Shown piece by piece: positions 72 through 53,095 of a DNA stretch of 53,095 nt; within the stretch, counting starts at the first letter, position 1; each line of letters starts with the position of its first letter. Where the stretch lies: positions 1-53,095 of the forward strand of contig JAFUBX010000043.1 of NCBI GenBank assembly GCA_017459985.1. The letters are read 5' to 3'. This stretch comes from Parasporobacterium sp. GTDB lineage: Bacteria; Bacillota; Clostridia; Lachnospirales; Lachnospiraceae. The notes under the pieces were generated by a model. That model searched no databases and had not been told where the DNA came from. It was given only the letters and a program-made list of their open reading frames with translations. A program made the translations under genes and the position numbers.

Positions 72-327
72 TAGGAAGGGATAGTAATTGGCAGTTTTTT
101 TATATTCAGTCCGAATTGCGAGGTAGAAGAGGACCTGAACTGGACTATATATGAAATTATTGGAAAGTCTTATCCCTGTTTTCGCAAAAATGACAGGGAT
201 AGTAAATGATGATTATTTCCAGGATGGTCCAAATGGCATGACGGAAGCAAGTATGGATGAAGTCAACGGCGGCATGGACTTTACGGCACATTCGACAGCA
301 GGAAGGCACCCACCCAAGGTGCAGAAG
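72..327 (+). repeat. Partial mosaic palindrome element, locus A
   Basis: This locus is homologous to 46040-46344 and, inverted, to 9899-10115. It starts inside the 3' half of one X hairpin (ending at 112). A 29-nt linker (113-141) follows, then a complete 89-nt X hairpin (142-230; core TATCCCTG at 171, CAGGGATA ending at 201, both exactly 29 nt from the unit ends). A conserved tail runs to about 284, and the short motif containing CCAAGGTGCAGAAG lies at 301-327. The middle X unit found at 46103-46191 is absent. A 66-codon reading frame from 151 lies in the hairpin and has no ribosome binding site. Confidence 0.88.
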
Positions 328-418
328 ACCAAAAAATGCAGCAATGCGTGAGATTTTTGACAGGGCATGACGAAAAAATGAAGCATTGTGGGAAATCCGC
401 CCACTACCACGATAAACG

Positions 419-9862: not shown

Positions 9863-9997
9863 GACTTCCGGGATAACCGCAATGCTGCAGCTTTTCGGCC
9901 TTCTGCACCTTCGGTGAGTGGTCTTACTGCTTTTGGAGGTTCCGTAAAGTCCATGCCGCCGTTGACTTCATCCATACTTGCTTCCGTCATGCCATTT

Positions 9998-10204
9998 GGA
10001 CCATCCTGATAATAATCGTCATTTACTATCCCTGTCATTTTTGCGAAAACAGGGATAGGATTTTCCAATAATTTCATATATAGTCCAGTTCAGGCTCTCT
10101 CAGGACCTTCATTTTGGACCATATTTTGAAAAATCGTCACTTTCTATCCCTGTTTTCCAGTTCAGCGCAGGGATAGTAATTGGCAATTATTGCGCTGATC
10201 ACCC
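9998..10204 (-). repeat. X-module array, two 89-nt hairpins
   Basis: Two 89-nt imperfect palindromes (9998-10086 and 10116-10204) are separated by 29 nt. Both carry the TATCCCTG/CAGGGATA core. The second unit is a hybrid: one arm matches the first unit of locus C (45985) and the other arm matches the second unit (46191). This is what recombination between adjacent cores would leave. Confidence 0.88.
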
Positions 10205-10252
10205 AAAGGCCTTCGGACTACGCATATTCCTGTATGTCTATTTCTGAAAAAA

Positions 10253-10399
10253 AGCATCTGCATGCTCTTAAATCCGGAATTCGCTGTGGCAGATGCTTCT
10301 GCCTGTAATGTATCCGTAATCAGGCACTATTTTCGATAAACGGATACATTTAAAGACAGCTGTCTCCACAATTTGCAGTTTTCAGAAAAAACGGATACA
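10253..10399. repeat. V and W hairpin modules
   Basis: V: AGCATCTGC (10253-10261) pairs with GCAGATGCT (10289-10297), enclosing a segment AATCCGGAATTCGCTGTGG that recurs in loci at 35.5 and 45.9 kb. W: TGTATCCG (10309-10316) pairs with CGGATACA (10341-10348), and a further CGGATACA copy lies at 10392-10399. W is seen only here. Confidence 0.75.
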
Positions 10400-10445
10400 A
10401 AGCCGCCGGCATCTGGATCAGGCGATTGACTCACAGAGTAAGAGT

Positions 10446-10565
10446 GGAAGGCCTGGTATGGAGTTTACAGGTTTTTTCTGAAATTACCTTCCGGATTTCC
10501 GGTGATTTGCACGGAAAACGGAAGGTAACATATGGAATTTATAAGCTTTTTTGAATTTACCTTCC
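10446..10565 (-). repeat. Z-module array
   Basis: GGAAGG (10446), ACCTTCC (10486-10492), GGAAGGT (10520-10526) and ACCTTCC (10559-10565) alternate. They form two outer hairpins of 47 and 46 nt flanking a 27-nt linker that is itself palindromic. Spacing is the same as at 35329-35449 and 45773-45893. Confidence 0.88.
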
Positions 10566-10651
10566 AAAATATATTTCCCTGCGTCGCCAGACAGCGGCAG
10601 TTGCAAACCAGCTTAATCCGAATCTCCGCTATTGCAAAAATCGGTTGTTAT

Positions 10652-10826
10652 GAGGATGTCAGATATCCTCAGACGGAGATTCTTCGTAAAATGAGACAGC
10701 CGACAATATCCTCAGATCCAGGGCCTTGGATATCTAAGGATGTTTTTTATCCTCAATCGGGGAAAGCTGGTATTCTGAGGATATCCGGCAATATCTCAAT
10801 TTTTTGGATTTTCATATAGAGGATAT
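10652..10826 (-). repeat. Y-module array
   Basis: Three roughly 38-nt palindromes bounded by ATATCCTC/GAGGATAT-type ends (10706-10743, 10747-10784, about 10789-10826) lie next to a 19-nt mini-hairpin (10652-10670). The same set in the same order is found inverted at 45512-45686. Confidence 0.85.
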
Positions 10827-11029
10827 TCACTATCCCCAAATAAGACATTTGGAATCTATGAGATATTCGACGGGCAATTAAAAGGGCTTTCCGGCGTAGA
10901 TTGCGGAAGATGATCACCCACCCAGGGTGCAGAAACACCGATTTTTATAGCTCAATGCCCCCAAGCTGCAGAAGCGCCCAATTTTTCGGCAGCACCTGTC
11001 GAAAACATCGAGATTTCGTCTTATCAGAC

Positions 11030-23571: not shown

Positions 23572-23600
23572 TTGACAGATCCGGTATTTGATGTTAGTAT
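23572..23600 (+). promoter_or_regulatory. Promoter of rplJ-rplL
   Basis: TTGACA (23572-23577), 17 nt, TAGTAT (23595-23600), giving a transcript that begins just before the L10 leader. Confidence 0.75.
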
Positions 23601-23603
23601 ATA

Positions 23604-23660
23604 GACCGCCGAAGACAGCAGGTGACGAAAGTCGTAACGCATGCAACCTGCCGAGGATTG
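23604..23660 (+). ncRNA. Ribosomal protein L10 leader
   Basis: The blocks GACCGCCGAAGACAGCAGGT and CAACCTGCCGAGGATTG form the AGCAGGT/ACCTGC stem and the internal loop of the known L10 leader, the binding site for the L10(L12) complex. Its position directly upstream of rplJ and before a terminator fits feedback attenuation. Confidence 0.85.
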
Positions 23661-23692
23661 AACAGGATTTCAGAATATTCTATGATTCTTCT

Positions 23693-23726
23693 CCCTCTAT
23701 GTCTTTGCGATATAGAGGGATTTTAT
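23693..23726 (+). terminator. Attenuator terminator of the rplJ leader
   Basis: CCCTCTAT (23693-23700) pairs with ATAGAGGG (23712-23719) and is followed by ATTTTAT. It lies between the L10 leader and the rplJ ribosome binding site. Confidence 0.8.
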
Positions 23727-23786
23727 ATCCTCTTTGAGCGGCAGAGCAGCTCCGGCTGCAAATTATCAAAAGAAGGAGGAAACATA

Positions 23787-35165: not shown

Positions 35166-35328
35166 GTTATATTCGCATATAGCGGGAAAATGGGTTCTTG
35201 TACACCTGCTCTTGTACCCCCTGGGTGGATGATCATCTTCTGCAATCATTACCGGACATCCCTTTTGATTTCCGTGGGATGAAGCTGTTTGTAACTGTCG
35301 CTGTCTGGTGTAGCAGGGAAATATATTT

Positions 35329-35449
35329 GGAAGGTAAATTTAGAAAAAGCTTATAAATTCCATATGTTACCTTCCGTTTTCCGGGCAAATCACCGGAAAT
35401 CCGGAAGGTAATTTCACAAAAAGCCTGTAAACTCCATACCCGACCTTCC
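35329..35449 (+). repeat. Z-module array
   Basis: GGAAGGT (35329), ACCTTCC (35369-35375), GGAAGGT (35403-35409) and ACCTTCC (35443-35449) form two 47-nt hairpins with a 27-nt palindromic linker (period 74). A further GGAAGGC follows at 35460. Confidence 0.88.
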
Positions 35450-35537
35450 GTACATCTGTGGAAGGCCCGCTGCGTAGCTGATGTATATTTTCTCACAAAG
35501 AGATCGAAAATCAGGAATTATTTTAGAAAACTCCGTC

Positions 35538-35579
35538 AAATGCATCTTCCACAGCAAATTCCGGAATTGAGATGCATTT
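35538..35579 (+). repeat. V hairpin module
   Basis: AAATGCATCT (35538-35547) pairs perfectly with AGATGCATTT (35570-35579). The loop contains the palindrome AATTCCGGAATT. The module is homologous to 10253-10297 and to the one-armed copy at 45908-45941. Confidence 0.75.
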
Positions 35580-35768
35580 TAAATGTTCTTAAAATGGCAC
35601 TTCCACTGTAAAAGATGCAGGAGAGAGTCTGCAGCTAAATCGACTGCAGGACAAGGGTATATGTATCCCTGATGCCGTTCACAGCCGCGGTTTTTGCTGC
35701 ATCACCCAGAGCAGGAAGACATCCACTCAAGGTGCAGAAGAATAAAAAAGTCTGATTACGGACACATG

Positions 35769-35805
35769 AAAAAACGCATGACATTCCGGCGAAGAAAGTC
35801 ATGCG
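35769..35805 (-). terminator. Terminator of the glycosyltransferase gene
   Basis: CGCATGAC (35775-35782) pairs with GTCATGCG (35798-35805). On the minus strand the stem runs into TTTTTTC. Confidence 0.85.
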
Positions 35806-44052: not shown

Positions 44053-44101
44053 ACTGAAGTTTCAAGTAACCTGGGAGCAAGGAGGGCAGACGAGGGTTAT
44101 T

Positions 44102-44231
44102 AGCGCCGGGACCGTAATTGGTTGACGAGGGTTGGCAGTGATCGAAAGATTCGGCGGGTGCTGCCACGGCCGGGATGGGCCGTTAGGAAGAAAGCAAAAA
44201 GCAAAATCAACATTGTAACAGAGGTTCTTCC
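44102..44231 (+). ncRNA. glmS-type self-cleaving ribozyme upstream of nagB
   Basis: The core blocks of the glmS ribozyme occur in order: A/GCGCC (cleavage between 44102 and 44103), P2 GACC/GGTT, GTTGACGAGG, P2.1 TGGCAG (44133-44138) with CTGCCA (44161-44166), TGATCGA, TTCGGCGGGTG, and P3 CGGCC (44167-44171) with GGCCG (44178-44182). Next come TTAG and P4 GGAAGAA (44186-44192) with TTCTTCC (44225-44231). The class is activated by glucosamine-6-phosphate as cofactor. It lies 36 nt before the nagB start codon, not before glmS. Confidence 0.92.
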
Positions 44232-44267
44232 GTCATCACGATACTTTTTTAAATAAGGAGATTACAT

Positions 44268-45292: not shown

Positions 45293-45511
45293 AAGCATAC
45301 AGACAGATCAGGCGCAGAGCTTATTACCCTGACAGAACGATATGTCTGCGGAACGTACCGCAACGCTCGATGTTTTCGATAGGGGCTGCCGAAAAAATGG
45401 GCGCCTCTGCACCCTGGGTGGTTAATCATCTTCCGCAATCTACGCCGGAAATTCCTTTTAATTACCGCCGGATATCTCATATATTCCAAATGTTTCATTT
45501 GGGGATAGTGA

Positions 45512-45686
45512 ATATCCTCTATATGAAAATTCAAAAAGTTGAGATAACGCTGAATATCCTCAAAATATCAGCTTGCCCCGATTGAGGATATAAAACATCC
45601 TCAGATATCCAAGACCCCGGATCTAAGGATATTGTCAGCTGTCTCATTTTACAAAGAACCTCTGTATGAGGATATTTGATATTCTC
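45512..45686 (+). repeat. Y-module array
   Basis: Palindromes of about 38 nt with ATATCCTC/GAGGATAT-type ends (about 45512-45549, 45554-45591, 45595-45632) and a 19-nt mini-hairpin (45668-45686) are arranged as in locus B. Confidence 0.85.
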
Positions 45687-45772
45687 AAAACAACCGCTTT
45701 TTGAAATAGCGGAGATTCGGATCAAGCTGGTTTGCAACTGCCACTGTCTGGTAACACAGGGAAATAAATTTT

Positions 45773-45893
45773 GGAAGGTAATTTCAGAAAAAGCTTATAA
45801 ACTCCACACGTCACCTTCCGTTTTCCGGGCAAATCATCGAAAATCCGGAAGGTAAATTCTGAAAAAGCATGTAAACTCCATATCCGACCTTCC
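45773..45893 (+). repeat. Z-module array
   Basis: GGAAGGT (45773), ACCTTCC (45813-45819), GGAAGGT (45847-45853) and ACCTTCC (45887-45893): two 47-nt hairpins on a 74-nt period with a palindromic linker. Confidence 0.88.
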
Positions 45894-45984
45894 GTCGTCC
45901 GCACAGGTAGAAGCATTTGCCACAGCGAATTCCGGATTTGAGTACGTGTTCACATACAGGAATATGCGTAGTCTGAAGGTCTTT

Positions 45985-46309
45985 GGGTGATCAGCGCAAT
46001 AATTGCCAATTACTATCCCTGCTCTGATTCGGAAAACAGGGATAGGAATTGGCAACTTTTTTATATACAGTCCGAATTGCGAGGTAGAAGAGGGCCCGGA
46101 TTGGACCAGATATGATATTATTGAAAAATCATATCCCTGTTTCGAAATTGAAAACAGGGATAGAAAATAGCGATATTTCATAATATGGTCCAAAAGGAAG
46201 GACCTGAGAGGGCCCGGACTGGACCATATATGAAATTATTGGGAAATCATATCCCTGTTTTCGCAAAAATGACAGGGATAGTGAATGGCAATTATTTCCA
46301 GGATGGTCC
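45985..46309 (+). repeat. X-module array, three 89-nt hairpins on a 118-nt period
   Basis: Units lie at 45985-46073, 46103-46191 and 46221-46309, with 29-nt linkers at 46074-46102 and 46192-46220. Each unit has the geometry 29 nt, TATCCCTG, about 15 nt, CAGGGATA, 29 nt. Units 2 and 3 have GGACC/GGTCC at their ends. The linkers resemble each other (both end GAGGGCCCGGA plus 2-3 nt), so these are not unique CRISPR-type spacers. Confidence 0.93.
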
Positions 46310-46392
46310 AAATGGCATGACGGAAGCAAGTATGGATGAAGTCAGCGGCAGCAGTAGTATGAAAGCAGCGGTGGCGCAAAACGGGCCGTGGG

Positions 46393-52903: not shown

Positions 52904-52927
52904 AAGGTGGTTAGGTGATCTACAGTT

Positions 52928-53095
52928 GGGTGATCTGCGTAAAAATTGCCGAAAGCTATCCCTGCTCTGATGCGGGAAACAGGGATAGTAGATGGCGATT
53001 TTTTCATATATAGTCCAAGGAAATAGCCCGAACTGGACCATGTGTGAAATAATTGGGAATCGATATCCCTGTTCCGATGTAAAAAAGTGGGATAG
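52928..53095 (+). repeat. Mosaic palindrome element, locus D (cut by window end)
   Basis: A complete 89-nt X unit (52928-53016) starts GGGTGATC like the first unit of locus C. A shortened 18-nt linker (53017-53034) follows, then a second X unit from 53035 (GGACC) that runs out of the window. Orientation is the same as in loci A and C. Confidence 0.88.

Follow-up and report, generated by a model that had tools for sequence, protein, structure and literature searches.

The hairpin-rich sequence that recurs between the genes of the 53,095-bp stretch analysed here (the window, contig 46 of a 3.53 Mb Lachnospiraceae genome in 131 contigs) is a genuine composite element, and it very probably belongs to a family of MITE-like mobile elements that are non-autonomous, built of modules in the manner of BOX repeats and moved in trans. 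The original prediction had described such a composite of several hairpin families and had offered a large structured RNA, a non-autonomous mobile element and a chromosome-organisation site as readings of it. The composite element as such is borne out by the module order shared between copies and by folds that are better than all shuffles tried. The mobile reading is in line with inverted ends, dispersed copies in both orientations, a gene junction that exceeds its counterparts in two sister species by about 1.1 kb, the nesting of copies with another repeat family and direct repeats at some copies. The host assembly has an estimated completeness of 94.75%, and among the best 80 of at least 596 RpoB relatives the top identity was 85%, to a MAG from sheep gut.

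The window contains five loci of the element (Table 1). None of them overlaps a called gene, as had been claimed; the genes were called with our own codon-usage script, edge overlaps of up to 60 bp were tolerated, and loci A and D each lack one neighbour gene at the contig ends. Copies C and B have the common module order that had been described for them. Both had also been taken as near-complete, which holds for copy B, running from repeat to repeat, and not for copy C, which starts with an end repeat while its similarity to other copies stops at about 46353 without a 3' repeat. Arms of a second, 221-bp family lie outside the end repeats on both sides of copy B and before the 5' repeat of copy C. 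The remaining three loci had been regarded as partial versions. Locus A is the 3' part of a copy at the contig start and locus D reaches the contig end; the 35.2-kb copy is not simply a fragment, as it has both ends, each with 3-4 mismatches, and encloses a second type of interior. Elsewhere in the window, a glmS element (44091-44241) precedes a gene of the glucosamine-6-phosphate isomerase family in place of glmS itself, and an L10 leader is located at 23591-23734.

Table 1. Loci, modules and flanking repeat remnants of the composite element in the window
Feature	Position	Strand	Remarks
Copy C, type I	45404..46353	+	3' end cut off; modules A, Y, B, V, V, S, X1, X2, X3, T
221-family arm, 5' side of copy C	45356..45399	+	aligned part = 221 positions 1-40
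5' terminal inverted repeat, copy C	45404..45420	+	one mismatch to consensus
Two V hairpins GGAAGGT..ACCTTCC, copy C	45773..45895	+	74-bp spacing
X1 palindrome, copy C	45985..46075	+	followed by T run
X2 palindrome, copy C	46102..46193	+	
X3 palindrome, copy C	46220..46311	+	
Copy B, type I	9899..10975	-	both terminal inverted repeats; Ta A Y B V P W S X1 X3 T Tz
221-family remnant, 3' side of copy B	9876..9898	-	
221-family remnant, 5' side of copy B	10979..11012	-	
Type II copy (35.2-kb copy)	35210..35741	+	both terminal inverted repeats; A B V Q Tz
Locus A, type I 3' part	77..327	+	at contig start; X1 right half, X3, T, Tz
221-family remnant after locus A	331-391		
Locus D, diverged X units	52926..53095	+	reaching contig end

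Fourteen modules were mapped by BLAST on the fetched stretches, with the consensus order Ta A Y B V P W Q S X1 X2 X3 T Tz. The modules are mostly palindromic and the copies differ by absent modules. The outcome named in advance as speaking against the element, modules scattered without preferred order, was looked for and is not what the map shows: among consecutive module pairs of the same orientation in 48 loci, 209 are in order, 16 repeat a module and 5 are out of order, the last confined to two loci (L018 and L026) in which copies of opposite orientation abut. An inverted module is involved in 9 further pairs. Ordered end and internal modules with variable presence, as in BOX-type repeats, are thus found over these 48 loci. 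Few loci hold V alone or X units alone, part of them at contig ends, so the modules can stand alone, although rarely.

The ends are common to two interiors, type I with W, S and X1-X3 and type II with Q instead; the latter is found in the 35.2-kb copy of the window and also in L011, L018 and L020. Over the 48 loci, 31 contain X units, 10 contain Q, 5 contain neither and two joined loci (L018 and L023) contain Q together with X2/X3, the second part having opposite orientation in both. The X units are ordered subtypes with 118-bp spacing. Seven of 67 X units (duplicates included) are hybrids with an X1 left and an X2 (or X3) right half, and this pattern suggests the product that a 118-bp deletion would leave. 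Conservation is about 0.76-1.0 across most of the composite interior and about 0.5 outside. A coding element was considered and rejected, as the 10 long copies have no shared reading frame and their longest stop-free stretches vary in frame and length.

Two short hairpin motifs were observed along with the modules. The V-hairpin arm motif CGGAAGGT is over-represented in the window, with 13 sites against 1.9 expected (e.g. 45281 and 51322), 7 of the 13 inside mapped copies; similar hairpins also occur outside the copies as terminator-like structures, for instance at L036. Hairpins with GTCATGCGG / CCGCATGAC arms recur beside many composite elements (35775-35805 and 8105 in the window) and look like another repeat or terminator family, although within the window the short motif is no more frequent than chance would give.

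The ends of the composite element are inverted repeats of approximately 17-25 bp, as is typical of MITEs, and are shared between copies. The inner end is (GGC)GCTTCTGCACCCTGGGTG with its inverse, and the end sequence has also been given as (GGC)GCTTCTGCACC. With up to 3 mismatches, the (GGC)GCTTCTGCACCCTGGGTG end was found at 59 sites, compared with 4 for a reversed-pattern control. Both ends are recognisable in ten copies of 400-1,264 bp, where one duplicate and chance pairings have been left out.

Copy C as query gave 115 matches in the host genome. After joining of matches and removal of two duplicate loci, at least 48 composite loci were mapped, a lower bound since five additional fetched stretches of this genome stand outside the count. 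At least three modules are present in 40 of the 48 loci, and the total is about 27 kb, or 0.76% of the genome. The copies are dispersed over many contigs in both orientations, and at least seven of them reach contig ends. The G+C content of the composite element is 0.429, as compared with 0.519 for the host window. Genome-wide, none of 40 composite loci (duplicates dropped) overlaps a called gene. The 24 composite loci with both neighbours lie between co-directional (11), convergent (8) and divergent (5) genes, whereas 24 of 156 gaps in the same stretches, occupied gaps included, are convergent.

The second family consists of elements of 220-222 bp in the 20 near-full-length copies chosen for alignment (TACCGCAATGC...GCATTGCGGTA), built of 61-bp hairpin units; a 160-bp member (L064) and a longer one (L170) are exceptions in size. 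It was found at loci L047-L066 and L168-L178 and has its own inverted ends, TACCGCAATGC / GCATTGCGGTA, which begin with TA. In this respect it is nearer to classical MITEs than the composite element is. In the 20 copies the stems are almost invariant while the loops are highly variable at nearly constant length, which suggests a constraint on the stem sequence itself. A CRISPR-like reading of the 61-bp units was dropped, as the loops vary around a shared pattern. The two families are nested: 21 of 35 composite ends (20 of 32 without duplicates) lie inside 221-family sequence, in both orientations, and some 221-bp copies in turn adjoin X-type sequence (L052, L060 and L066).

The comparison with sister species is in line with insertion. 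Copy B sits between two convergent genes that are likewise adjacent and convergent in G006 and G012, the two closest genomes of the same genus as judged by a neighbour protein of copy B. The junction measures 1,227 bp here and 90 and 91 bp in the two sister species, where the gap holds a terminator-like hairpin; the sequence shared between the gaps is too little for a base-exact empty site. For copy C, five sister stretches were searched for an empty site, and in none of them does the downstream gene adjoin the nagB-like gene. Four contig pairs considered for a strain comparison were rejected because they are 99.94-100% identical and look like assembly duplicates; the small contigs C43, C36, C37 and C44 match parts of larger contigs at this identity and are probably such duplicates.

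The proposed search for target-site duplications gave a mixed result. Direct repeats were clear at L036 (9 bp), L019 (10 bp with one mismatch) and L021 (11 bp); copy B has one of 7 bp, and weaker ones were observed at L014, L011 and L028, but L018, L020 and the 35.2-kb copy have none or only poor ones. Among mismatched flank pairs used as control, 11 of 90 reach a score of at least 7, and permuting all ten copies gave 234 of 20,000. As target duplications these repeats are suggestive only, because targets of the 221 type repeat internally and can mimic duplications. The cleanest case is L036, which is in a terminator-like T run outside the 221-bp family.

The element appears to be narrowly distributed. 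Neither the type I query (copy C) nor the 221-bp query matched any of 60 relatives, 13 of them of the same genus (E 0.001), and the type II query gave one 68-bp match of 81% identity in one of the 13 same-genus genomes (G006). The G006 match (L216, G006:C157, ~1365-1470) is a single hairpin, part of Q, without terminal repeats. Absence from relatives is not firm, since many of the genomes were only partly assembled and repeats tend to drop out of assemblies of this sort. A phage or plasmid origin was rejected: the type I copy has no match in plasmid and phage collections, and type II none in plasmids. Exact patterns found no match in viral or genome contigs, from which records of the host genome may be missing, and no title in the literature searches describes such an element in Lachnospiraceae.

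A transposase gene was not seen between recognised ends in the end pairs and loci read, with searches for Y1_Tnp and DDE_3. For the 221-bp family with its TA ends an IS630-type partner was considered and rejected; the sole DDE_3 match is below cut-off, its ORF, as read, is what we take to be a phage terminase, and neither end motif is present at the locus. A transposase between the ends in L052 was likewise rejected, as the ORFs there, read by eye, look like ordinary genes. The mobiliser may be present, may have been lost, or may be in the missing part of the assembly.

Taken together, the data would fit the following scheme for modular mobile elements. A transposase acting in trans would recognise the ends and insert copies, probably making a 7-10-bp target duplication, with hairpin or terminator sequence in which an A/T run adjoins CG as the likely target. 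Recombination or slippage between the repeated hairpins may then delete modules, as the X1/X2 hybrid units suggest. The copies would be retained at intergenic sites that tolerate them, where they may serve as terminators.

A more speculative variant is that the element is a hairpin-collecting platform, in which one pair of ends captures palindromes of various kinds that one mobilising system spreads as cargo, the ordered set growing and dispersing through the chromosome. Such palindromes would include terminator-like hairpins, units of the 221 type and the Q hairpin, a piece of which stands without the ends in one sister species. We consider this variant unlikely.

It is still less probable that the many copies represent a large structured non-coding RNA that is kept for its fold. 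With RNA parameters the region 45356-46344 folds better than all 20 shuffles (z -5.99), and with DNA parameters 45982-46312 folds better than all 100 (z -8.14), although arrays of palindromes would be expected to do so. In all five sets, conservation is slightly higher in paired than in unpaired columns (0.927 vs 0.833 in the 221 set, 0.931 vs 0.844 in X2), and double Watson-Crick changes occur in 3 of 11 pairs in V, 1 of 24 in X1, 1 of 32 in X2, 1 of 21 in X3 and 8 of 72 in the 221 set, while none was found in the 59 RNAalifold pairs of the 221 alignment. The V module prefers G-U over A-C (51:25), but the ratio is 52:36 for X and 36:56 for the 221-bp family, and the disagreement indicates no consistent transcribed strand. 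Compensatory changes with one preferred strand were therefore not observed, the double changes being few and the strand bias inconsistent, and neither covariation nor strand bias lends support to the RNA reading of the original prediction. Around copy C there are 8 promoter-like matches, 6 of which fall within the element, as compared with 2.6 in shuffled sequence, and 4 terminator-like matches as compared with 1.2; this excess is no evidence of function but leaves room for transcription. On the other hand, modules are freely absent between copies, the orientation is even in the 11 co-directional gaps (5 with the genes and 6 against) and the window's copies have no Rfam match in a search of the window. 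Overall, the RNA, strand and gene-context results favour tolerated mobile DNA over RNA.

We attach an equally low probability to the idea that the copies serve to organise the chromosome or to bind a protein and were spread or kept for this purpose. The spread of copies across many contigs and, in the 20 chosen 221-bp copies, the combination of nearly invariant stems with almost constant loop length would fit such a role; the composite copies, however, vary strongly in length and content, and the lack of type I and 221 matches in all 60 relatives also argues against it. Least credible is an origin as REP/BIME-like repeats made by a RAYT transposase: the present repeats are intergenic, palindromic and species-limited, as REPs are described in the cited account (PMC2817692), but the proposed check for RAYT-type genes found only two Y1 transposase genes in the host genome, both of which pass the IS200/IS605 model and score 27.8 and 34.7 against the 80-bit cut-off of the REP-associated model, and five of six tested repeat motifs are absent from both Y1 loci, the sixth (short V) occurring once in one of them about 1 kb from the gene.

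Among known systems, the modular mobile element proposed here is best matched in design by the BOX elements of Streptococcus pneumoniae and S. suis. The cited account describes these as intergenic and rich in stem-loops, with inverted-repeat end modules, variable internal sets and an excess at convergent genes, reports mutual insertion with RUP and SPRITE, and gives two families with seven subsequences for S. suis (PMC3049150). The original prediction had overstated the contrast with known palindromic repeats, given that BOX elements, too, are built of modules and are found inserted in each other (PMC3049150). The likeness lies in the end modules, the ordered internal modules in variable sets, the hairpins and the mutual insertion; it is a likeness of design, and we do not file the present family as a BOX element. 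BOX elements are given as 67-637 bp with few modules (PMC3049150), whereas the both-ended copies here are 400-1,264 bp, comprise as many as 13 of the mapped modules and have either of two interiors between the same ends. What is new compared with the BOX elements covered by that account is thus the larger size and number of modules, while the kind of element is already known.

With bacterial MITEs such as Correia, RUP and ERIC, described as units of less than 200 bp often with TA termini (PMC2229807), the present elements share the lack of a conserved ORF, the inverted ends, the location between genes and a G+C content lower than that of the host window, but they are larger and composite. They resemble REP/BIME repeats, as described, in that palindromic repeats are joined into larger mosaics (PMC2817692), and differ in that no RAYT gene was found and that long ordered modules lie between defined inverted ends. 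Our data indicate that modular MITE-like repeats of bacteria can be longer than 1 kb, combine over ten modules in a set order, have two alternative interiors on shared ends and be nested with another hairpin family. The set of copies opens questions of module gain and loss and of mobilisation. There is also a practical side, since copies run into contig ends and such palindromes are easily mistaken for regulatory RNAs. It is the ordered and variable sets of modules between inverted ends, the feature shared with BOX elements, that best place this family among known repeats.
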